A stretch of 58,459 bases of DNA from an uncultured Ignavibacteria bacterium (lineage in GTDB: Bacteria; Bacteroidota; Ignavibacteria; Kapaibacteriales; Kapaibacteriaceae). This document shows positions 1,902 through 44,335 of the stretch, piece after piece. A program made the translations under genes and the position numbers. The notes under the pieces were generated by a model, which was given only the letters and a program-made list of their open reading frames with translations, did no database searches and was not told the DNA's origin. The DNA lies in assembly GCA_903939735.1 (NCBI GenBank), contig CAJAIA010000015.1, positions 1-58,459 of the forward strand, written 5' to 3'. How positions within the stretch are numbered: position 1 is the first letter of the stretch; each line of letters begins with the position of its first letter.

Positions 1902-3961
1902 CGTTGAATCACGATCGGTAGTTGCTGTGTGCCACATGAACTGGAGAACGTCACTGTATAAACTCCTTGCGGGAATGTGGACATATCAATCACGACGCTC
2001 CGCATTCCATGTTCAAGCATCGCTGCTGCCGTATGGATCGTCGTGCCACGAAGGTCGGTGATTGTGTACTGCACGAGACTCGGCTGCGCAACAACATAGG
2101 AAATCGAGAAAACAGTTTGTGTTGGGAGTGGCCCATATCCGAGGAGAGTGATACACGAAGGTGGAGCGTCGGAGACGCTAAGGATTGATGACGGTGGGTC
2201 GAGCGGAGCAGGTACTTCCTGTTGAGCCTTAGCCGGCGCAGGTGATGCCGTTGGCTTCAACGTGCTTTGATCACGCAGTGTCGCAAAGCCTCGAACCCAA
2301 CGTTCGCGTGAAGGGCGAACAAGTATTGAGTCAACGAAGTACCAATCACACTGAGCGCGGGCTGATGTGAGATCGAGAATCTCATAACCGTGGTTAACAA
2401 TGTCATGCCACTTGAGGTGCTTGTTGAGTTCTCGGAGTGTCGTGTCGACAGTGCCGATCAGGGCCGGAACAATGCTTCGAAGAAGCGTCACGGAGGAGAG
2501 TGTTTCGTCGAAATTCGGCGCTGATATTGATGGCGTTATCATCTCAACAGGCAATGTCGCAGGTGAATACGGTGGTTTGATCGGATAGTCGAATGCGAAG
2601 GCGCAGTGGAAGTCGCCGGTTGTAATGACAAGGTTGCGCACGTTGTTTTCCATGAGCCGTTGCAACAACATGTTACGTTGTGCAGGGTAGTTCGTCCACA
2701 CATCACCTCGAAACGCTATCTCAAATGTGGACTGTAGCGTTGGGAGCTGTGGGCGGAGTATAAGCGAGAAGAATGGTCCAATGCTCGCAAAGAGATAGTT
2801 GGTGTCGATCGGATTCACTTCGACTGGTGTGAACATGACTTGATTGCCCAACACACGCCACGTCGTAGTACTCGTACTGAGTCCATCAACAAGCCAGTTG
2901 AATTGCCGTTCCGACATAATCTTGCGCGCCGGATCGTTCAGTGAATCCTTCGATGCCTGTGACGCATCGGATCCGACTCCCTGCACTTGTATGTCACGTC
3001 CATCCAGTCGCGTATCGAGCATAAAGAGGTCGGCCATGTCTCCAAGACGGAATCGACGGTAGAGCACAGAGTCGGGACTCTCACGTGTAGGCATCCACTC
3101 GTAGCAGACGCGCTTTGAAACGGCTTTCCGTACCTCCCATGATCCTTCATTAGGCTGATGATTCTCGGCTCCATTTTCATATGCATCATTAGCAGACTCG
3201 TGGTCGTCCCATACGTGCATCATTGGATGCTGTTGATGAAGACGTCGCAAATCTGCATCTAGACGATATTGTGAGTAGCGAACGCGATAATCCGAGAGTG
3301 TGATAATCTCATTGGCGGGTTCATGTGAACGACCGAGTGTGATCCCAGTAGTACCGCCATACGAAGCGCTATCGGCATCATATTCATAGATGTAGTCGCC
3401 AAGATGAAGCACCCCATCAAGGTCGTTACGTCGTGCGATTGCGGCATAGACGTTGAAGTATCCCGTAGGATAGTTTGAACACGACACGATCGCCAAACGC
3501 ACCTGCTCTTGGTTTCCTTCGGTCAGTGTTCGTGTACGCCCAATGAGCGACGACCGATTGTACGCACTAAAGACGTAGTAATACGTTGTTGCAGGACGAA
3601 GGCCCGTCACATCGATCTTCACGGTAAAGTCACGCTCCGATGTCGCCCGCACGGAACCACGTGCCACCGTGGTAGAGAATGATGTGTCGGTCGCTACTGC
3701 ATAGTCCACCATCACGGCAGTATCGCCCGGCTGTGGTGTGGCACGAGTCCAGATGATCACACGGTCCGTGAGGGGATCTCCACTGGCCACTCCGTGATAG
3801 AATGGGCGGAGACGTTCCTCGACAACTGTGACCTCAGAACGGCGGGATCCTGGAGGCTCGTGTCGCGCGCGTCGGTCGAAGCGCAACGAGTCGCTCATGC
3901 TCATTGCAAGTGTCGTCAACGCTGCGAACGAGACAAAGATGGCTGTAATGCGACGTATCAT
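1898..3961 (-). CDS. phoD: exported PhoD-family alkaline phosphatase with C-terminal sorting domain
   Basis: Encodes 687 residues from the ATG at 3961, chosen because it opens a signal peptide (MIRRITAIFVSFAALTTLAM). Farther upstream starts would lack this and run into the divergent gene. Residues of about 50-150 form the N-terminal PhoD domain (YHGVASGDPLTDRVIIWTRA). The metallophosphatase core shows SCSNYPTGYFNVY, LHLGDYIYEYD, HVWDDHESANDAYENG and ITTGDFHCAFAFDY, which carry the expected metal and phosphate ligands. PhoD enzymes hydrolyse phosphomono- and diesters outside the cytoplasm. The last 80 residues form a beta-rich tail with FPQGVYTVTF and end QLPIVIQR, like a type IX (Por) sorting domain. 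It heads the coupled phosphatase-lipoprotein-TonB receptor operon. Confidence 0.93.
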   Translation of the reverse strand: MIRRITAIFVSFAALTTLAMSMSDSLRFDRRARHEPPGSRRSEVTVVEERLRPFYHGVASGDPLTDRVIIWTRATPQPGDTAVMVDYAVATDTSFSTTVARGSVRATSERDFTVKIDVTGLRPATTYYYVFSAYNRSSLIGRTRTLTEGNQEQVRLAIVSCSNYPTGYFNVYAAIARRNDLDGVLHLGDYIYEYDADSASYGGTTGITLGRSHEPANEIITLSDYRVRYSQYRLDADLRRLHQQHPMMHVWDDHESANDAYENGAENHQPNEGSWEVRKAVSKRVCYEWMPTRESPDSVLYRRFRLGDMADLFMLDTRLDGRDIQVQGVGSDASQASKDSLNDPARKIMSERQFNWLVDGLSTSTTTWRVLGNQVMFTPVEVNPIDTNYLFASIGPFFSLILRPQLPTLQSTFEIAFRGDVWTNYPAQRNMLLQRLMENNVRNLVITTGDFHCAFAFDYPIKPPYSPATLPVEMITPSISAPNFDETLSSVTLLRSIVPALIGTVDTTLRELNKHLKWHDIVNHGYEILDLTSARAQCDWYFVDSILVRPSRERWVRGFATLRDQSTLKPTASPAPAKAQQEVPAPLDPPSSILSVSDAPPSCITLLGYGPLPTQTVFSISYVVAQPSLVQYTITDLRGTTIHTAAAMLEHGMRSVVIDMSTFPQGVYTVTFSSSCGTQQLPIVIQR

Positions 3962-3995
3962 ACTGGTGTGGCAACAACTATGGAGAAACGGAAGT

Positions 3996-4010
3996 CTACG
4001 AACATCGTAG
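3996..4010. promoter_or_regulatory. perfect inverted repeat in the divergent phoD/nnr gap
   Basis: CTACGA and TCGTAG (6-base arms) flank a three-base spacer. The repeat lies in the 58-base gap between the divergent starts at 3961 (minus) and 4020 (plus). It is placed like an operator, but it is short and no regulator is known from this window. Confidence 0.3.
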
Positions 4011-4019
4011 TTTCGCTGC

Positions 4020-5537
4020 ATGGTTCCAATTGTTGTACCAGATGATATACATGCACTCGACCTATGGTGTTGTGCCTCACAGGGTATCGATCCAGCAGAC
4101 CTCATGGAACGTGCCTCGCAATCAGTGACGAAGGCGATCCTAACGCAGATTGACGCATTACCCGCCGACGCTACGATTCTGGTAGCAGCTGGCCCCGGGA
4201 ATAATGGTGGCGATGGGCTCTGTGTTGCACGCATGCTGTATCTCCACCGTCAGACCTTGCGTGTCGTCGTTACGCATGTCTCTGCGGATGGACCGTGCTC
4301 GCCCCTTCGACGATGGGCAAACGAGCTGCTGCCTGCAGCCATCGAGGTGATGACAACTACCGATGCAGCAGACCGTCTGAAGCCCGACGTGATCATTGAT
4401 GCAATAATGGGTATTGGTGGCACGGAGGAACTGCGGGATACTATCGCTTATGCACTTGTGAGCCTGTCCGTTCATGATGCTTTTCGCATCGCACTAGATG
4501 TGCCTACCGGACTCAATCCTATGACGGGTATAACACACGCGACGGCGTTCCGAGCTGACACGACGATCACCATAAGCGCTGAGAAGCGCGGTTTCTGGCT
4601 TCATGATGGTCCCGACATCACTGGTCGGGTTGTTGTAGTGCCATTGGGTGTTGACGGTGCTGAAGAGCGCCTTCCATCATCAGTGGTGCGATACACGGGC
4701 CATGATTACGCGCGTCTGCTTCCACAGCGTACGCGTATGTACTCGAAGTTCGATGCAGGAAGGGTCGTTGTTGTAGGGGGCACGACATCAATGCATGGAG
4801 CCCCTTCAATGACAGCCCATGCGGCGCTTCGTGTTGGCGCAGGTCTTGTCCACCTGGCAGCGCCCATCATTCATCCGATGACGCCACGTGAGGTTATCAC
4901 GCATGCGTTGCCACATCATGACGATGGATCGATTGCTGTAAGTGCTCTTTCCGAACTTGACGCGCTCATTAGGCGTGCATCTGTCGTTGTGGTCGGACCT
5001 GGCCTCGGGACCAATAGCGATACGCTTCACATGCTTGCCTCTGTGATCGAGTCACTTGATCAACGCATACCGATCATTATTGATGCCGATGGGCTGCGAT
5101 TACTACCACTGTTGTCTGCCACAAGGCCGTCCATGGTTCTCACACCGCACCGGGGAGAGTTCGCGCGGATGCTCGGAGTCGATGCTCGCGATCTGTCGAC
5201 AGATGCGATGGCATTGGCTCACGAGTGGTGTCAGACGCATGCAGGAGTGCTGCATCTCAAGGACACACCATCCGTTACCCAACAAGCGGATGCGTCCGTG
5301 CTTACTGTCAACGGAACTCCACGTATGGCTACTGCCGGGGCAGGTGATATCCTGACAGGCATTATTGCTGGAGTTGTCGCACAAGGCGTGTCTACCTTTG
5401 AGGGTACCGCACTCGCATCATACTTGCATGCTCAAGCTGGCGTGTATGCGTCAGGGGGCAAGGGAGATCGTCCAATCGTTGCGACTGACATGTTGTGGGC
5501 GTTGCCCCACGTGATGGCTCACTCGCTCTCAGCTTGA
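4020..5537 (+). CDS. nnr: bifunctional NAD(P)H-hydrate epimerase / ADP-dependent NAD(P)H-hydrate dehydratase
   Basis: Encodes 505 residues. This housekeeping metabolite-repair enzyme restores NADH and NADPH hydrates: the N-terminal epimerase interconverts R and S forms, and the C-terminal kinase-fold domain dehydrates the S form using ADP. The epimerase half (about 1-215) shows the YjeF motif VAAGPGNNGGDGL and DVIIDAIMGIGG. The dehydratase half (about 225-505) shows VVVGPGLG, the VLTPHRGEFARML motif and the nucleotide-binding TAGAGDILTGIIAG near the end. The length fits the fused bacterial form. It is divergent from phoD with a 58-base gap and converges on dacB, overlapping its 3' end by 19 bases. 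Confidence 0.95.
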   Translation: MVPIVVPDDIHALDLWCCASQGIDPADLMERASQSVTKAILTQIDALPADATILVAAGPGNNGGDGLCVARMLYLHRQTLRVVVTHVSADGPCSPLRRWANELLPAAIEVMTTTDAADRLKPDVIIDAIMGIGGTEELRDTIAYALVSLSVHDAFRIALDVPTGLNPMTGITHATAFRADTTITISAEKRGFWLHDGPDITGRVVVVPLGVDGAEERLPSSVVRYTGHDYARLLPQRTRMYSKFDAGRVVVVGGTTSMHGAPSMTAHAALRVGAGLVHLAAPIIHPMTPREVITHALPHHDDGSIAVSALSELDALIRRASVVVVGPGLGTNSDTLHMLASVIESLDQRIPIIIDADGLRLLPLLSATRPSMVLTPHRGEFARMLGVDARDLSTDAMALAHEWCQTHAGVLHLKDTPSVTQQADASVLTVNGTPRMATAGAGDILTGIIAGVVAQGVSTFEGTALASYLHAQAGVYASGGKGDRPIVATDMLWALPHVMAHSLSA

Positions 5538-34995: not shown

Positions 34996-36183
34996 TTACA
35001 CGAACAAACAGCCGGAGCTGCCTGTCCAGGGCTCTGTGTTGTAGCGTGCTCCCATATAGGCGCCGCGTCCAGTTCGCGCGAGCGACATCACGGGAAGCGG
35101 CTCGGAGAAGCGATCGGGCCAGAGGCACATCACACGTATTTCAACGGCATTATCTCCATGCGGAGTAGGAATGCAGCGTGCGTATGTAACGCGCTCTTGG
35201 AGGATCCACAGATGCCGATCAGCTGCCGGTATAACGGCAACATCGTGATGCGTCGGACCAACAATCACGCCTTTGCCAGCAAATGCATAGAGCGGCTTGA
35301 GAACATAGCGATCGAGGTCTGCCGGGAGTTCATCGATCTCATTGAGGAACATTGACCGCGGAACTGTCGGATGATCAAGGTACGGCATCGATGACTTACT
35401 CATCAAGAAATACCAATTCGGGTTACCCGCCCATTCGACGTCGAGATCATCATCCCATCGGAAGTTGAGGTGCACGTGATGATCGCGGAGCTCATCGACA
35501 ATGGCTCGGTTGAAGATGCGGCGGAGAACATGCTTCTGTCCGCGTGCATCTGTGTGCACTAACTGACGTCCATCGCGGTACACATCTCGAATGTCAACCG
35601 TTTTGAGTCCAATCATCTTTTCGAGCGCAATAAAGTCAGGACGGGTCTTCTGACGCAAAGGGTCTAACTCAACGAGTGCGACATTGTCAGCATCATGCCC
35701 GCCTATGATGCACTCGCGTAGAAGTGCCGAATAGGAGTCGTAGGAAAGATCAGACAAGAACGGTGTCGAATCGTCAAGACCGTACACTGCGCGCATCTGC
35801 GACGTATACAGAAGTTGATAACCGAACAGCGAAGGGAAGCCCTGTAACTCAATCAGACGTGGAACAAACGTTCCGTCGTCACTCATTGTGATCGCAAAAT
35901 CAACAACGGAGAACAGCGGACGATCGGACTCCTGACGAACACGCACTTCCTCGTCAATCAATCGTGTTGTATGAGCTAGTGTCGTAGGGCGAGCGCTCTG
36001 AAGCGTTATAGCGATTGCTGCGTCCTCGAGCTGCCGTCGCATCTCGTGTGAGACGAAGATGGGCGTTTCACAGACACGGAACTCAACCGGAACGCCAAGA
36101 ACTGATTGCATCTGGGCGCAGACTTCTGCGTGCGTCTCAGCAGAGACGCGCTCGATAAATGACCTCTGAAGGTCAGGTCTCAA
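34996..36183 (-). CDS. uncharacterised protein, probably ATP-grasp-like
   Basis: Encodes 395 residues if it begins at the TTG (36183) that overlaps the upstream stop as TTGA; an ATG about 24 codons later is the alternative. I cannot name the family. Segments recalling ATP-grasp ligases are RYVLKPLYAFAGKGVIVGPT (a Lys followed by a Gly-rich loop), LWILQERVTYARCIPTPHG and EIRVMCLW. The N-terminal half contains RLIELQGFPSLFGYQ, which recalls the substrate-side Glu region in glutathionylspermidine-synthase-like proteins. No signal peptide or membrane segments are visible. It is translationally coupled to an amidohydrolase, suggesting that one makes and the other breaks an amide, by inference only. 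Confidence 0.75.
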   Translation of the reverse strand: MRPDLQRSFIERVSAETHAEVCAQMQSVLGVPVEFRVCETPIFVSHEMRRQLEDAAIAITLQSARPTTLAHTTRLIDEEVRVRQESDRPLFSVVDFAITMSDDGTFVPRLIELQGFPSLFGYQLLYTSQMRAVYGLDDSTPFLSDLSYDSYSALLRECIIGGHDADNVALVELDPLRQKTRPDFIALEKMIGLKTVDIRDVYRDGRQLVHTDARGQKHVLRRIFNRAIVDELRDHHVHLNFRWDDDLDVEWAGNPNWYFLMSKSSMPYLDHPTVPRSMFLNEIDELPADLDRYVLKPLYAFAGKGVIVGPTHHDVAVIPAADRHLWILQERVTYARCIPTPHGDNAVEIRVMCLWPDRFSEPLPVMSLARTGRGAYMGARYNTEPWTGSSGCLFV

Positions 36184-38150: not shown

Positions 38151-40436
38151 ATGCCACGTACACCCCTGCATCTCTCGCTCCTCCTCATCATTGTTACCGC
38201 ATGTACCATTCCTGCATGGTCCCAAGACCAGCCAGCAGGGGAGGTGTTGGGTACCATCAGCGGATTCATCGAAGATTCCCTCTCGAAGGAAACTCTTGTT
38301 GGCGCTACGGTCAAGGTCAATGGAACCAACCGTGGAGGCTTTACCAACAAGAGCGGATACTTCTCAATATCGAAGATCCCCGCTGGAACGTATACGCTTA
38401 CGGTCACCAGCGTCGGATATGTACGACGCGAATACGTTGTGACACTGGCGCGCGGAGAAGCACGTAAAGTGCGCATTCCTATGCGGCAATCGAAGTCAAC
38501 AAGTAAGGAAGTGCAGGTTACTGCTGATCGAGACGAGGGTAAGCGTCAGGTATCGATCTCGCAGGTCAACATTCCCATGGAGCAGCTGTCGCAGATACGA
38601 ATTGGTGGAGAGGCAGATATCTTTCGTGCTCTCCAGATGCTGCCCGGCGTTCTCTCGTCGTCGCAGATCTCATCGGGTTTGTTTATCCGCGGAGGATCGC
38701 CCGACCAGAATCTTGTGCTGTTGGACGGCATGACGGTCTACAATCCAACCCACTTGTTCGGATTTATCTCGGCCTTCAACAACGATGCTGTAAAGGATGT
38801 CGACCTCCTCAAAGGGGGCTTTCCAGCTGAGTTCGGCGGACGTATGTCGGCTGTCCTTAACATCACACAAAAGGATGGAAATCGCGACAAGTTCGAAGGT
38901 CTCGTAGGACTTGGCATACTTTCTTCGCGTGCAAGTCTCCAGGGTCCACTCGGTAACGGGTCGTTCTTCCTCGGAGGCCGCGCAACATATCTCGATCTGA
39001 TCTTGAACGTCATTCCGGAAGATCCGGAGAGTCCGTTCCCGAACTTCAACTTCTACGATGTGAATGCGAAGATCACGCAGAACCTCTCTGAAGATGACAA
39101 GCTGTCGATAAGCGGGTTTCTTACACGTGATGCGCTCTCGTTTACGCAGCCAGGACTCCTCTTCAACGTAGGCATCGGTAACAGGGCAACATCTGCTCGG
39201 TGGTCGCACATCTTCGCACCGGATCTGTTCTCTAATGTCACCGTAAGCGCTAGCCGTTACGATAATGGCTTTGCTGGGAACAACGCCGGATTCGAATTCT
39301 CGATCGACAACAGCATCACAGACTACACAGTCAAGGCCGAATTTGAATGGTTCACTGCGGAGGACTTCACTCTCAAGTTCGGATATGAGGGTGCTATCTA
39401 CAATTTCCAGTACCTTCAGAACACGACCGGTCGGACCGATGGGTCGACGCAGACGCAAAGTGATGTCTTCCAATTGAATATCTGGGACAACATCCACGGG
39501 GGCTATGCGGCCTCTACGTGGAACGTGGATGACTACACGACACTCCAGACAGGCTTGCGCGTAAACTATTGGGGCGATCGTCAAGAGCTCTTGTTCGATC
39601 CTCGAGTCGCTATTCGATACCAACTTGCTGATGGCGTGTTTGTAAAGGGGGCATGGGGTATCTATCACCAGTACCTGCGTCTTGCGTCATCGCCTGATTT
39701 CAGCTTCTTCGACACATGGCTCCCCACAGACAACTCGGTTCCACCAGGACGTTCGCAACACGTTATCGCGTCGATTGAAACACAGCCCTTCGAGGGATTT
39801 GACCTGAATTTTGATGTCTACTACAAGTCGCTCGACAACATCAACGAGTTGCGACAGAATCAGCGTCAAACACGTTCGGTAACAGATGTGTTCTACATCG
39901 GTAACGGTCGTGCGTATGGTGCTGAGGTGTTTCTTCAGAAGAAGATGGGACAGTTGACGGGATGGATTGGGTATGCGCTCGGTTTCGTCTATTCGCAGTT
40001 TGATAGCGTGAATCAGGGTAACGAGTTCAGACCAAAGTTCGACCGACGACACGATTTGAAGATTACCGCTATGTATAAGTTCAACGAGCGGTGGGAAGTT
40101 GGAGCGACATTTATGTTCCAATCTGGGCAGTCCTATACTGGTGCAACGTCAACTCTTGGTGGACGCATGCCGGGCTGGGACGGTGGTATCGTCATGGTCA
40201 ACCCGTCGCAGCGCTGGGGTCTTCGTCTGCCATCATCGCATCAATTGAATCTGAACGTGAATTACAACACGACATTGTTCGATCTTCCATTCCGGATGTT
40301 TATCGACGTCTTTAACGTGTATTCACGTCGGGACATCTGGTTCCGCTTCTATGACACATCAAAGGCGATCCCAAGCGTCACAGATGTGCGACTTCTACCG
40401 ATCCTTCCAACGTTGTCATGCGAGCTGAGGTTCTGA
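38151..40436 (+). CDS. TonB-dependent outer-membrane receptor
   Basis: Encodes 761 residues from the ATG at 38151, which opens a signal peptide (LHLSLLLIIVTACTIPAWSQ). The carboxypeptidase-like domain at about 35-125 shows ISGFIEDSLSKETLVGATVK and TLTVTSVGYVRREY. The plug at about 130-240 shows LPGVLSSSQISSGLFIRGGS, NLVLLDGMTVYNPTHLFG and FPAEFGGRMSAVLNI. The C-terminal beta-barrel ends TLSCELRF with a terminal Phe, as in outer-membrane proteins. The substrate is unknown. Its stop overlaps the start of a DUF4249-type lipoprotein gene (TGATG), a pairing known in Bacteroidetes, so the two probably form one uptake complex. Confidence 0.95.
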   Translation: MPRTPLHLSLLLIIVTACTIPAWSQDQPAGEVLGTISGFIEDSLSKETLVGATVKVNGTNRGGFTNKSGYFSISKIPAGTYTLTVTSVGYVRREYVVTLARGEARKVRIPMRQSKSTSKEVQVTADRDEGKRQVSISQVNIPMEQLSQIRIGGEADIFRALQMLPGVLSSSQISSGLFIRGGSPDQNLVLLDGMTVYNPTHLFGFISAFNNDAVKDVDLLKGGFPAEFGGRMSAVLNITQKDGNRDKFEGLVGLGILSSRASLQGPLGNGSFFLGGRATYLDLILNVIPEDPESPFPNFNFYDVNAKITQNLSEDDKLSISGFLTRDALSFTQPGLLFNVGIGNRATSARWSHIFAPDLFSNVTVSASRYDNGFAGNNAGFEFSIDNSITDYTVKAEFEWFTAEDFTLKFGYEGAIYNFQYLQNTTGRTDGSTQTQSDVFQLNIWDNIHGGYAASTWNVDDYTTLQTGLRVNYWGDRQELLFDPRVAIRYQLADGVFVKGAWGIYHQYLRLASSPDFSFFDTWLPTDNSVPPGRSQHVIASIETQPFEGFDLNFDVYYKSLDNINELRQNQRQTRSVTDVFYIGNGRAYGAEVFLQKKMGQLTGWIGYALGFVYSQFDSVNQGNEFRPKFDRRHDLKITAMYKFNERWEVGATFMFQSGQSYTGATSTLGGRMPGWDGGIVMVNPSQRWGLRLPSSHQLNLNVNYNTTLFDLPFRMFIDVFNVYSRRDIWFRFYDTSKAIPSVTDVRLLPILPTLSCELRF

Positions 40437-41317
40437 TGGTGCGATTAGTGTCTCTATGGCTCCTGCCGGCTATCGCTGTGCTTCTATTGGTGGGATGCGG
40501 CGATCCCGTTCCAACTGATTATCAGGAAGAGCTCGTAGTTGAGGGGTTTGTGTTCGTTGGTGAACCCATCAGTGATATTCGTGTCCTGCGTACGCTTCCA
40601 ATTACCGACACGTTCCGCTTTGTGGATGCATCAATTCGTGATGCCCAAGTCCGTATCACTGCCGACGGGGTACCTCTACCAGTAGAGTATGTATCCGACT
40701 CGCTTGGTGGCACGTATCGTGTGGCTGATCAGCAGTATCGCGCTGTATCTGGCGTGACATATGCTATAGAGGTCATTGCAGCTGGTAAAACAGTAACGGG
40801 TTCTACGACCACACCTGATACGCTGTCGTGGGTGAAAGCACCGAAGGACACCCTTCAATATCCAGGTAGGTTGTTCGAGCTAACACGAAACGATTCGCTC
40901 GAAGTTGGTTGGACCGCAGTGCCGGGCGTCGGACAGTACGTGGTTGCTGTAGAGTGCTTAGATACACTTGGCTACGGACAGTATCTATCACCCGCAACGA
41001 CTGATTCGAATCGACGTATCCGTGATCAGGATCGGTTCGATGACGGAACATTGATAGCGAATGAGCGTGTACGGTTCGGTTTTTCTATTCTCACCCGAGC
41101 ACCGACAGTATGGTCGGTCTTCAAGTGGTTTGGGAAGCAGGAGATACGCGTCTACGCTGGTGACTTGGCATTCCAGGAGTGGTTCCGAATGGTTGGATTC
41201 GGACGACGCAGCTCGTACGACTATCGACTCAGCAACATCAAAGGTGGCCTTGGAACATGGGGATCAGCCTCCCTGATCCGCAAGTCGACGTTCCTGAAGA
41301 TGGATCAGATCAAGTAA
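40436..41317 (+). CDS. DUF4249-type outer-membrane lipoprotein
   Basis: Encodes 293 residues from the ATG at 40436. A lipoprotein signal (LLPAIAVLLLVGC, Cys near residue 21) leads into beta-rich sequence: ELVVEGFVFVGEPISDIRVL, ISDIRVLRTLPITD and AQVRITADGVPL, then a Thr-rich TTTPDTLSW. This order matches DUF4249 proteins encoded next to TonB receptors. A role as the receptor's surface partner is therefore likely, though uncharacterised. The last 54 bases overlap the convergent RdgB-fusion gene. Confidence 0.85.
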   Translation: MVRLVSLWLLPAIAVLLLVGCGDPVPTDYQEELVVEGFVFVGEPISDIRVLRTLPITDTFRFVDASIRDAQVRITADGVPLPVEYVSDSLGGTYRVADQQYRAVSGVTYAIEVIAAGKTVTGSTTTPDTLSWVKAPKDTLQYPGRLFELTRNDSLEVGWTAVPGVGQYVVAVECLDTLGYGQYLSPATTDSNRRIRDQDRFDDGTLIANERVRFGFSILTRAPTVWSVFKWFGKQEIRVYAGDLAFQEWFRMVGFGRRSSYDYRLSNIKGGLGTWGSASLIRKSTFLKMDQIK

Positions 41318-42505
41318 GCGCTTACTTGTTCCGACTCCATAGAGCTCCGTGACAGCGTGTTCTACCGCACGCAAATCATCAAACGTGGCGCCAACGCGAA
41401 GCGCACCACGCACGTGTGACACAAGTTGCTGTTGTCGACCGAGAACTGTGAGCATAGCCACGATACACAACTCGCGCGTACATGTATCGACTCCCTCACG
41501 AGACAGTGTCTTACCGTACCCTTCAACGATCATCCATGTTGCAAGATCTGGAGATACGTCAGATAGGGTCGACGTCATTTTATCATAGACAGAACCATAG
41601 ATCTCACGGCAGAGAGCTTCACCGCGTTTGCAGTACTGTGCGACATCATACATGCGATCGACATCACCGACTGATGGCGGAATGCCATGAATTCGATATG
41701 CCGCGCTCAATCCATCGAGGGCTGTCGGAAATCCACCGAACAGGTAGGACTGCAGAAGTACCTCATATAACTCGCGATGATGTGATGTCGGCACACGACG
41801 AATTGCTTGTTCGAGTTGGTCAACTTCGGTCGTCATAGCACAGAGCGCAACATCGATGAGCAGGTGGCGCACCTCGAGCAATGTGAGAGAAGTCGGCAGC
41901 ACAGCTACGGCAGAGAGAACATCGACCATTGCCGACATCGCCTTGCTACGATGGCTCGTCTGATGCTTTTCTGATGGTGTCATTTCGCCGTACGTTTTAT
42001 CTGCGCCAAGTGGGATGAACATTGCATCGTATCCGAATCCATGCTCGCCCCGTTCATCGATATGCACATGTCCATGGCTGACCCCCTCGGTGAGATGTAT
42101 GCGCATGCTATCAACAACGCATATCACACATCGAAAACGAGCAGGGGACGATGTTGCATCTCGCGCAATGAGATCTGACCGAAGTTTCGTTCTGTTCGTG
42201 CTGTCTGTAGCATCAGCCCCTGCATACCGAGCTGAGCGCACACCTGGAGCTCCGTTGAGAATGTCTACCTCGAGGCCACTATCATCCGCGAGAACTGGAA
42301 GGCCTGTAGCGCGATGTACCTCGACGGCTTTGATGAGTGCATTCTCTTCGAAGGTGACACCGGTTTCCTCAATTGTGCCGTGAAAACCTACATCCGTGAG
42401 CGTGAGGACATCAAATGGAAGTCCTGCGATGTCGAGCATGTGCTGCAGTTCCGTTGCCTTGTGTGCATTGGACGTAGCTAGAACGAGCGGTGTCTTTTCA
42501 GGCAT
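41264..42505 (-). CDS. fusion of RdgB/HAM1 nucleotide pyrophosphatase with a carboxymuconolactone-decarboxylase-like domain
   Basis: Encodes 413 residues, about twice the usual RdgB length. Residues of about 1-203 are a complete RdgB-type XTP/dITP pyrophosphatase with TSNAHK at 11-16, ADDSGLEVD at 73-81, GAPGVRSARYAG, GFGYDAMF at 156-163 and the HQTSHR motif. This enzyme removes deaminated purine triphosphates. Residues of about 204-413 resemble a two-part AhpD/carboxymuconolactone-decarboxylase fold (CTRELCIVAMLTVLGRQQQL followed by HVRGALRVGATFDDL). The second domain has no CxxC, so AhpD-type peroxidase chemistry is unlikely. No stop or frameshift separates the halves; the join is near base 41896. 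The 3' end overlaps the convergent lipoprotein gene by 54 bases. Confidence 0.9.
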   Translation of the reverse strand: MPEKTPLVLATSNAHKATELQHMLDIAGLPFDVLTLTDVGFHGTIEETGVTFEENALIKAVEVHRATGLPVLADDSGLEVDILNGAPGVRSARYAGADATDSTNRTKLRSDLIARDATSSPARFRCVICVVDSMRIHLTEGVSHGHVHIDERGEHGFGYDAMFIPLGADKTYGEMTPSEKHQTSHRSKAMSAMVDVLSAVAVLPTSLTLLEVRHLLIDVALCAMTTEVDQLEQAIRRVPTSHHRELYEVLLQSYLFGGFPTALDGLSAAYRIHGIPPSVGDVDRMYDVAQYCKRGEALCREIYGSVYDKMTSTLSDVSPDLATWMIVEGYGKTLSREGVDTCTRELCIVAMLTVLGRQQQLVSHVRGALRVGATFDDLRAVEHAVTELYGVGTSKRLLDLIHLQERRLADQGG

Positions 42506-42512
42506 GTCTCAC

Positions 42513-43580
42513 TTAGCGTGATATGATCGAATCAATTGCGTCAAAAAGTATCGAGTACCGCTCAGAGGTGTATGAGCCGCAAAGTCCAAAGCGAACAACC
42601 TCTCCGGCCATTGCATCCTGTCCGTTGGCAATGATCATGTTATGCGTGTGCTCGAGTTCGCGTCGAATACCGTCTCCATCAGGATGCGTCATCACGAGAA
42701 CACCACGCGAGGTTGATTGACCCCACACTGAAAAACCGCGTGACTCGGCACGGGCGCGCACATCGTCGTAGAGCGCATTATGATGGCTCCAAACAGATGG
42801 AAGCCCCTTCGAGAGAATGCTGTCGACGGCAACAGAGAGCTGCGCGACAAGTGACGTCGGAGGGGTCCACGTCATGCGGTCGTTACGAAGATTCTCAACG
42901 ACACGATGGAGATCGAGTGTAAAGAGCGGTCGTGATTGCGAAGTGCGCTCGCGCGCGCGATCGCTTAACGCTACCAACGCCAAGCCAGGTGAGCAAGAAA
43001 GTCCCTTTTGTATTCCAGTAACAACAGCATCTAGACCCCATGCTGAGGAACGAAGCTCCTGAATGGCGACGCTTGTTACGGCATCAACGCACACGAGCGC
43101 TTCAGGGTGATACCTGCGAACAATCGATGCAATGGATTGTACATCGATACTGACGCCCGTTGACGTTTCGCTATGGACGCACCAGACAACGTCGAGCTTC
43201 GCTACAGACGAACAATACCGTTCAACTGCGCCGTTATCGATTGCGTTTCCCCATGGAGCAGAGATGCTCTCGACCGTTGCACTGTAGATACGAGCGATAT
43301 CCAATAGACGTTCACCGAAGCGTCCATGATGCAGAACTAGAACATGATCTGATGCATGCTGCAACGACGCTGCGCTCGCATCAATACCTGTCATGCCACT
43401 GCCAGACAGCATCAGCACTGGTCCATCCGAGAGGAATACTTCCTGCAGACGATGTGAAAGATCGTGCACAACCGATGTGTAGGCATCGCTCTGATGATAC
43501 AGCTCGACATGTGCACCAGCGGCTGCTATCTCATCAGTGAGTGGTACCGGACCCGGTGTAAAGAGAAGTTGGTTCTTCAT
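42513..43580 (-). CDS. class V aminotransferase (alanine-glyoxylate / serine-pyruvate type)
   Basis: Encodes 355 residues. The ATG at 43580 is chosen for its ATGA overlap with the upstream methyltransferase gene and because MKNQLLFTPGPVPL is the usual family start. The PLP-binding Lys is K192 in VVTGIQKGLSCSPG. CVDAVTS carries the Asp that contacts the pyridine nitrogen, and LMLSGSGMTGIDA forms the phosphate-side loop. Phosphoserine, alanine-glyoxylate and aspartate relatives share this pattern, so the substrate is unresolved. It starts after the RNA methyltransferase and ends eight bases before the RdgB-fusion ATG. Confidence 0.9.
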   Translation of the reverse strand: MKNQLLFTPGPVPLTDEIAAAGAHVELYHQSDAYTSVVHDLSHRLQEVFLSDGPVLMLSGSGMTGIDASAASLQHASDHVLVLHHGRFGERLLDIARIYSATVESISAPWGNAIDNGAVERYCSSVAKLDVVWCVHSETSTGVSIDVQSIASIVRRYHPEALVCVDAVTSVAIQELRSSAWGLDAVVTGIQKGLSCSPGLALVALSDRARERTSQSRPLFTLDLHRVVENLRNDRMTWTPPTSLVAQLSVAVDSILSKGLPSVWSHHNALYDDVRARAESRGFSVWGQSTSRGVLVMTHPDGDGIRRELEHTHNMIIANGQDAMAGEVVRFGLCGSYTSERYSILFDAIDSIISR

Positions 43581-44335
43581 TGAGCTTCGTACATCAGCAC
43601 TGCACATGCAATGCTCGCGTTGAGTGACTCAACGGAGCCTGATCCTGGAATCGTAACCGTATGAGCGCACATTGAGAGAAGTTCTGGACGCACACCATGT
43701 GCCTCGGATCCCACAACCACTGCACATGCTGGTAGCGAACGAAGGACGCGCGGATGTTCGCCATCTCTGGTCACTGCAGCAACCATTGGAACACTACCAA
43801 GCATCGCACGCAACGCGTCTGTTTCAATATCACGGAGGATGTTTACGTGCATCAGTGATCCTACACTTGATCGAACAACCTTTGGCGCGTAGGGATCAGC
43901 ACACCCAGCGAGTAGGACAACGTCAGTAAATCCAAACCACGCAGCTGTGCGAATGATCGTACCTACATTGCCTGGATCTGCGACGCCATCGAGCACAACT
44001 ATGCGGTTGCCAAGAGGTGCAGATTCGGGAATCACGACCACGGCCAGTATGTCTCGTGGTGACGTAGTGTCAGACATACGCTCCATGTCGCGCCCACCGA
44101 CTGCATAGACTGGAGTGCCACGGTGTTCAAACACCTCAGCGCACGCACGTGAACGTGGATCAGCGTCGTCACGCAGAACAACACATTGCACAATAGCATG
44201 CGACTGTGCCAGTTCCTCGCACGCATGCGGACCTTCGACGAGGAATGTCTGTGTTTCGCGACGTGACCTGACCGTGTGAAGATCACGGATGTCGTTTCGT
44301 AGTTTGCTCGTACAACGAGGGTACTCTGAATTCAT
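43577..44335 (-). CDS. TrmH/SpoU-family RNA 2'-O-ribose methyltransferase
   Basis: Encodes 252 residues. The N-terminal 80 residues form the substrate-binding domain (KLRNDIRDLHTVRSRRETQ, FLVEGPHACEEL). The SPOUT catalytic domain carries the three knot motifs: DGVADPGNVGTIIRTAAWFG, VVVGSEAHGVRPEL and IPGSGSVESLNASIACAVL. It methylates a ribose in rRNA or tRNA; the exact site cannot be told. It diverges from the phosphorylase gene with only 11 bases between start codons. It is coupled to the aminotransferase by ATGA. Confidence 0.93.
   Translation of the reverse strand: MNSEYPRCTSKLRNDIRDLHTVRSRRETQTFLVEGPHACEELAQSHAIVQCVVLRDDADPRSRACAEVFEHRGTPVYAVGGRDMERMSDTTSPRDILAVVVIPESAPLGNRIVVLDGVADPGNVGTIIRTAAWFGFTDVVLLAGCADPYAPKVVRSSVGSLMHVNILRDIETDALRAMLGSVPMVAAVTRDGEHPRVLRSLPACAVVVGSEAHGVRPELLSMCAHTVTIPGSGSVESLNASIACAVLMYEAQ

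Follow-up and report, generated by a model that had tools for sequence, protein, structure and literature searches.

The gene described here raises the question of why RdgB, a very widespread enzyme of nucleotide-pool sanitation, should share a polypeptide with a carboxymuconolactone decarboxylase (CMD)-like domain, and what that second domain might contribute. In the window (the whole 58,459-nucleotide stretch of DNA that was analysed), one open frame of 413 amino acids spans positions 41264–42505 of the minus strand; on the plus strand, frame 1 of the same region holds several stops. The first-pass annotation had described an uninterrupted frame between these positions, leaving its strand unstated, with a complete RdgB followed by a CMD-like half devoid of a CxxC pair, and each of these points was borne out. 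Combining the open frame with Pfam matches and an AlphaFold model of the whole protein (mean pLDDT 94.5, pTM 0.69), we divide the chain into an RdgB/HAM1 domain (residues 7–195, window 41921–42487, minus strand), a linker placed by pLDDT (about residues 201–207, 41885–41905, minus), an N-terminal CMD half-copy delimited from alignments, model and conservation (about residues 209–273, 41687–41881, minus) and a C-terminal CMD copy with a complete fold, located by Pfam, model, structure alignment and conservation (about residues 288–412, 41270–41644, minus). The lowest pLDDT of the chain (74) falls in the block of residues 201–210 and, because the whole-protein pTM is 0.69, the modelled placement of the RdgB and CMD domains relative to one another is uncertain.

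The N-terminal half matches Pfam Ham1p_like (PF01725) over residues 7–195 with an E-value of 9.4e-56 (189.1 bits against a cut-off of 22.5), the fusion protein scores 161.5 bits on TIGR00042 (cut-off 145.35), and the TSNAHK, ADDSGL, GFGYD and SHR motifs noted at first pass are all present. Residues N13, K16, E47, D74, D75, F157–D160, K180 and S184–R186 are invariant in all 36 fused and adjacent RdgB sequences; the predicted fold agrees with that of E. coli RdgB and further HAM1 structures (PDB 1k7k, 2pyu, 2q16), such that the whole domain, its motifs and its fold are shared with this family. From family membership, intact motifs and predicted fold, we infer that this half is an ordinary RdgB XTP/dITP diphosphatase. 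The matched solved HAM1 chains comprise ~181–221 residues, whereas the window protein adds a second domain after HAM1. A profile search of the 2.47 Mb genome gave the fused gene as its single PF01725 match, and an RdgB match was present in all 14 control genomes. No sign of an anti-phage role, such as that of the HAM1 defence protein KomB, came from a PADLOC search (2023 library, which may lack a KomB model), in which neither the fusion nor any of three neighbours had a match at E≤0.01.

The second half is a helical domain of ~200 residues. Its match to Pfam CMD (PF02627), which had been set as the test of the CMD assignment, is significant (37.8 bits over residues 326–386, E=2e-9; cut-off 23), and all 80 members of our CMD sequence set A3 match the same profile at E≤0.01 (all but one of the 65 stand-alone CMD proteins are in A3, the exception being L146, dropped for an overlong start; a further set, A2, holds 34 of the 65). 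Modelled alone, this half gives a mean pLDDT of 95.8 and a pTM of 0.92, and structural comparison, also suggested at first pass, returned a CMD fold. The nearest solved sequences are 2af7, an archaeal gamma-CMD with a single CMD (the closest structure by sequence, and a structural-genomics entry by its title), and 4g9q, a 4-carboxymuconolactone decarboxylase of 269 residues with two CMD copies per chain. The model aligns in order with 4g9q (Z 18.5, 188 residues, 2.8 Å), and its C-terminal part aligns with the whole of 2af7 (Z 13.5, 119 residues, 1.6 Å). By sequence the match to 2af7 is permuted: the last helix of 2af7 corresponds to the start of the CMD half (the N-terminal copy) and the rest of 2af7 to its later part. 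Our first reading, made from sequence, was accordingly a circular permutation of a single CMD, which was set aside since the in-order alignment to 4g9q is described equally well by two CMD copies in tandem, the first of them cut.

We therefore read the CMD half, from alignments and model, as a double CMD in which an N-terminally shortened first copy precedes a full second copy, a feature that the first-pass annotation missed. The first copy keeps an E248-x3-Q252-x-Y254-x-F256-x-G258-x-P260 helix but lacks the R-E and H that a full copy would have; the second carries Y330-G331-K332, R336, R344-E345, Q360 and H364, with no E-x3-Q-x-Y-x-F-x-G-x-P motif in its own last helix. Although 4g9q likewise has two copies per chain, the first copy of the window protein is cut at its N-terminal end relative to that structure; only the second copy retains R-E and H, and only the first has the Y-x-F-x-G-x-P helix. 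The C-terminal copy has YG, R, R-E, Q, S-H and R-G in common with 2af7.

Conservation was assessed over 112 rows (18+5+1 fused sequences, 12 adjacent, 11 unlinked and 65 stand-alone frames from named genomes), among which some genomes are repeated and 99 rows are distinct over the core. G295, Y303, Y330, G331, R336, R344, E345, Q360 and H364 are identical in 112 of 112 rows (99 distinct), as is E248 in all 111 rows besides L069, which is cut there and whose aligned Glu is an alignment accident. Positions Q252, Y254, F256, P260, P319, W324, G329, K332, S363, R366 and G367 vary in some rows, with several of the changes in family f5: K332 is lost in all five f5 fusions and W324 in four of them, and each is absent from one of the 18 fusions of family f1, to which the window genome belongs. 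Among these 18 the CMD half evolves faster than the RdgB half (mean identity 41.6% versus 50.0%). The dN/dS values of close pairs are low (about 0.12 and 0.19 for RdgB; about 0.13, 0.17 and 0.27 for CMD; synonymous sites in the remaining three pairs are saturated or nearly so), which argues that both halves are maintained by purifying selection.

The invariance of the polar positions bears on the proposal, put forward at first pass, that the CMD half acts as an oligomerisation scaffold. Such a role would suit the short linker and the habit of CMD/AhpD-like proteins of forming hexamers or trimers (according to a passage of PMC3141380), but R336, R344, E345, Q360 and H364 are kept throughout the alignment in fused and free proteins alike, and 65 of 80 named loci have the CMD domain in a frame without RdgB; we consider a pure scaffold for RdgB, whether for oligomerisation or stability, unlikely, while oligomerisation could be a side role.

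From conservation, together with alignments to single and tandem CMDs, we propose that the motifs of the two copies form one composite site at a pseudo-dimer interface, in which the R-E, Q, H and YG(K) elements of the C-terminal copy would meet the E/Q/Y/F/G/P helix of the degenerate N-terminal copy, the latter standing in for a second subunit. The putative core of this site runs from R344-E345 to H364 (window 41414–41476, minus strand; placed by sequence and conservation). Judged from spacing, E345 and H364 appear to sit where AhpD has E118 and H137, and the model does match M. tuberculosis AhpD (1gu9; Z 11.5, 129 residues, 4.2 Å), although a Z of 11.5 may reflect a mere common helical arrangement. 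In both proteins the active copy lies near the C-terminus of a longer chain, and a passage of PMC3141380 describes the helices of the M. tuberculosis protein as transposed relative to other AhpD-like proteins. Peroxide or thiol chemistry of the AhpD kind is nevertheless very improbable: the window protein, unlike AhpD, has no CxxC and so, by that measure, is not a thiol peroxidase. Some CxxC occurs in nine of 129 partly overlapping rows, and between R-E and H only in L010 and L014, where it is a CIVC directly after R-E rather than beside the H as in AhpD; the window genome, moreover, encodes a separate CMD protein (contig 10) with a CPYC, which looks like the ordinary redox type. We thus rejected an AhpD-like peroxidase on the absence of CxxC between the conserved E and H, and AhpD-like E and H positions free of CxxC point to a chemistry that is likely non-redox and acid–base.

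Another candidate is PcaC, the 4-carboxymuconolactone decarboxylase of protocatechuate breakdown. It is the top NCBIfam match of the CMD half, and every A3 member (80 of 80) reaches E≤0.01 against it, the best value being 1e-27, but on TIGR02425 the whole protein scores 49.2 bits and the half 51.7, far below the cut-off of 155.7. PcaB exceeded its cut-off in none of seven genomes (the weaker matches found in all seven occur also in all 14 controls), and an intradiol dioxygenase domain was present in one of the seven, which is not the window's. We rejected this identity, which is highly improbable. The CMD half is probably a non-redox acid–base enzyme that is PcaC-like in kind, with one site per single-chain double CMD, and it may catalyse decarboxylation, isomerisation or lactone opening of some metabolite; a search for an enzyme of known mechanism with the same R/E/Q/H site found none, making this putative chemistry a guess. 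According to a passage of PMC3141380, a paper on AhpD, how the active site of carboxymuconolactone decarboxylase is arranged had yet to be determined.

The distribution of the two domains in the order decides whether the union is genuine. A profile search found a CMD domain (E≤1e-15) in 63 of 123 genomes of the order, and in 25 of the 123 the CMD profile lies inside one open frame of 404–485 amino acids (18 genomes of f1 including the window's, five of f5 and two of f9); RdgB in the same frame was confirmed for the window, for 23 relatives and for G122 (read as locus L096). A detailed sample of 60 genomes (the window's own and 59 relatives) contains 24 fusions, 12 pairs of separate neighbours and 12 genomes with the genes on different contigs (some at contig ends), the last including nine genomes of f4 and f7. 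Of the rest, six are f2 genomes with RdgB alone, two are partial (G005 retains the CMD part only, near a contig end, and G021 the RdgB part only, at a contig end) and four are without a match, PF01725 having no match at all in G007, G020 and G022 (f1) and in G053 (f5). An unfused RdgB was not seen in f1, for which G005, G007, G020, G021 and G022 are uninformative either way. RdgB is thus present in most sampled genomes of the order, and the CMD gene is optional; all six sampled f2 genomes (G023, G032, G039, G046, G051 and G056) have RdgB without the double CMD, which was found in none of the f2 genomes listed in the 123-genome scan (40 genomes had no match there and are not in the list). Most of the best-matching named records bear the label Candidatus Kapaibacterium, Ignavibacteria or Bacteroidetes, and NCBI taxonomy places Kapaibacterium within Bacteroidota.

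In all neighbour pairs but one (11 of 12) the two genes can overlap by 4–20 bp, a CMD start codon lying out of frame before the end of rdgB; the exception, L035, has a gap of at least 17 bp. Some pairs offer extra start codons, one of which (L045) would leave a 4 bp gap. In genus g25, two of seven genomes are fused (G050 and G122), and in the remaining five the genes could overlap, by 4 or 8 bp. Two-gene relatives, which had been named at first pass as grounds for suspecting a sequencing error, hence do exist, and lend some plausibility to an artefactual joining of two genes; one open frame in 25 genomes of three families rules out both chance and a one-off sequencing error, however, and we rejected an assembly error as exceedingly improbable. 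The fusion is a real, recurrent union of two known families, of which the second half is a distinctive double CMD.

Both domains are known from other long proteins with different partners. NCBIfam PcaDC (NF051488) and PcaCD (NF051487) join CMD to a lactonase, and PRK02491 (NF002698, 328 positions) has HAM1 in its C-terminal part; against these fusion models the window protein scores 37.8, 16.7 and 141.7 bits, respectively, with cut-offs of 390, 430 and 301. The RdgB–CMD fusion was not found in the literature searched: no paper paired carboxymuconolactone decarboxylase with RdgB or HAM1, none paired Kapabacteria with carboxymuconolactone, and none combined any three of ITP pyrophosphatase, RdgB, fusion and RNase PH; circular permutation came up in one paper, within a reference on another subject.

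Trees inform on how often the genes were joined. A joined RdgB and CMD tree was built from 24 fused sequences and 12 neighbour pairs, and a CMD-only tree included 17 of the 65 stand-alone CMD proteins; both exclude G005 and G052 (cut genes) and the g25 genomes except G050 and G055. On the joined tree the genes must have switched between the fused and the separate state a minimum of three times. The f5 fusions group with neighbour pairs of f3 (four of five f3 pairs; support 100/99), G050 groups with the overlapping pair of G055 (99/98), and the f1 group, with L018 inside it, has support of 94/83; the CMD-only tree places L018 outside that group, on a poorly supported branch (82/25). AU tests reject one clade of all 24 fused rows (p-AU 0.00014) and a grouping of f1 with f5 (p-AU 0.0002), and marginally reject f1 with G050 (p-AU 0.033). 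A single fusion event is rejected; on these groupings and tests two events are firm, and a third, with G050 apart from f1, is likely but weakly supported. Since the neighbouring and stand-alone states are widespread, the direction of change would be fusion rather than fission.

In the window, the fused gene is preceded directly, after a 7 bp gap, by a class V aminotransferase gene (42513–43607, minus strand; Pfam), with which it probably shares an operon. Next lies a SpoU-family RNA methyltransferase (43577–44335, minus; open frame and Pfam), the frame of which overlaps that of the aminotransferase by 31 bp if both begin at their first start codon; this arrangement recurs in many relatives. 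On the other side, a convergent gene for a DUF4249 protein (40418–41317, plus; open frame and Pfam) shares its final 54 bp (41264–41317) with the end of the fused gene; a gene similar to it by eye stands in the same place in L061, L064 and L067. Within the order a D-Ala-D-Ala carboxypeptidase S13 gene often follows the CMD gene and is its most frequent neighbour (profiles for S13, aminotransferase, methyltransferase and PYNP were custom-built from four to seven frames each). S13 after CMD, often with a 4 bp overlap, was observed in L034, L037, L043, L045, L049, L050 and L063 (Pfam-tested) and in others, also where rdgB is elsewhere.

We also surveyed 80 of 248 named loci, with flanks of at most 5 kb, less at contig ends, and scan patterns that favour close relatives. 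Fifteen are fused, in nine rdgB immediately precedes the CMD gene, and the flanks of the other 56 contain no rdgB. The loci that carry rdgB, 24 in all, bear the labels Bacteroidota (13), Ignavibacteriota (9), Chlorobiota (1) and just bacterium (1), and in the flanks of surveyed loci from other phyla no rdgB was found. The double CMD domain occurs alone in Gemmatimonadota, Zixibacteria, Eisenbacteria and others amid other neighbours (identified by Pfam for one member per neighbour group), namely asparaginase II and ObgE on either side in several Gemmatimonadota loci, DapF after the CMD gene in Eisenbacteria and a trypsin-like PDZ protease before it in Zixibacteria. RdgB is therefore no obligate partner, and the want of a constant one speaks for a general role of the CMD enzyme, with RdgB one of several operon neighbours. 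From the neighbours, S13 being commonest in the order and others elsewhere, we concluded nothing on the function of the CMD half.

These neighbourhoods also weigh on a shared pathway, in which the CMD half would act on a nucleotide-derived or damaged metabolite and the fusion would couple two steps of metabolite repair. Such coupling would fit the recurrence of the fusion and the close overlap of the genes within the order, and the presence of RdgB in most sampled genomes beside an optional CMD gene would allow a special link only where the two are joined. We regard it as unlikely, given the 56 named loci with no flanking rdgB, neighbours that vary by phylum (asparaginase II, ObgE, DapF, peptidases) and the separation of the genes in f4 and f7, where the CMD gene stays with S13 in f4 and in some of f7. 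The first-pass suggestion that purine-triphosphate clean-up is tied to a second reaction is possible in principle and drew no support from these comparisons. Its most specific form, a two-step repair enzyme whose double CMD removes or rearranges a toxic product tied to non-canonical purine nucleotides and whose two steps were fused repeatedly in Kapaibacteria-group lineages, is quite unlikely; if true, it would give a first function to a double, half-degenerate CMD family of several phyla.

The explanation that we favour, and hold to be reasonably probable, is a bifunctional protein that arose by fusion of overlapping operon genes and combines RdgB with a single-chain double CMD enzyme. In the ancestral operon the CMD start codon would have overlapped the rdgB stop codon, as it does in relatives, and loss of the frame offset between the two genes would have fused them. 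The benefit to the cell would most likely be a fixed 1:1 supply of two housekeeping enzymes rather than the passing of substrate, with RdgB dimers perhaps joined to CMD oligomers. The series from different contigs through neighbouring and overlapping to fused genes illustrates how overlapping genes can come to be fused; RdgB being so widespread, a partner that is repeatedly fused to it gives a hint about its cell biology; and the comparison brings out a conserved CMD subfamily that carries its own partner copy and whose invariant R/E/Q/H site has a directly testable reaction.

Three further observations concern neighbouring frames. A 395-residue frame beside an amidohydrolase gene (window 34996–36183, minus strand) had no Pfam match at E≤0.001. 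In L086 the aminotransferase before rdgB was matched as two overlapping pieces (3567–4318), as if its frame were broken. Finally, G038 presents a second kind of RdgB fusion (L052:4123–5859, minus strand), again between genes of this operon: an aminotransferase, identified by visual inspection of its start, shares one frame of 578 amino acids with RdgB, and the CMD gene lies on another contig.
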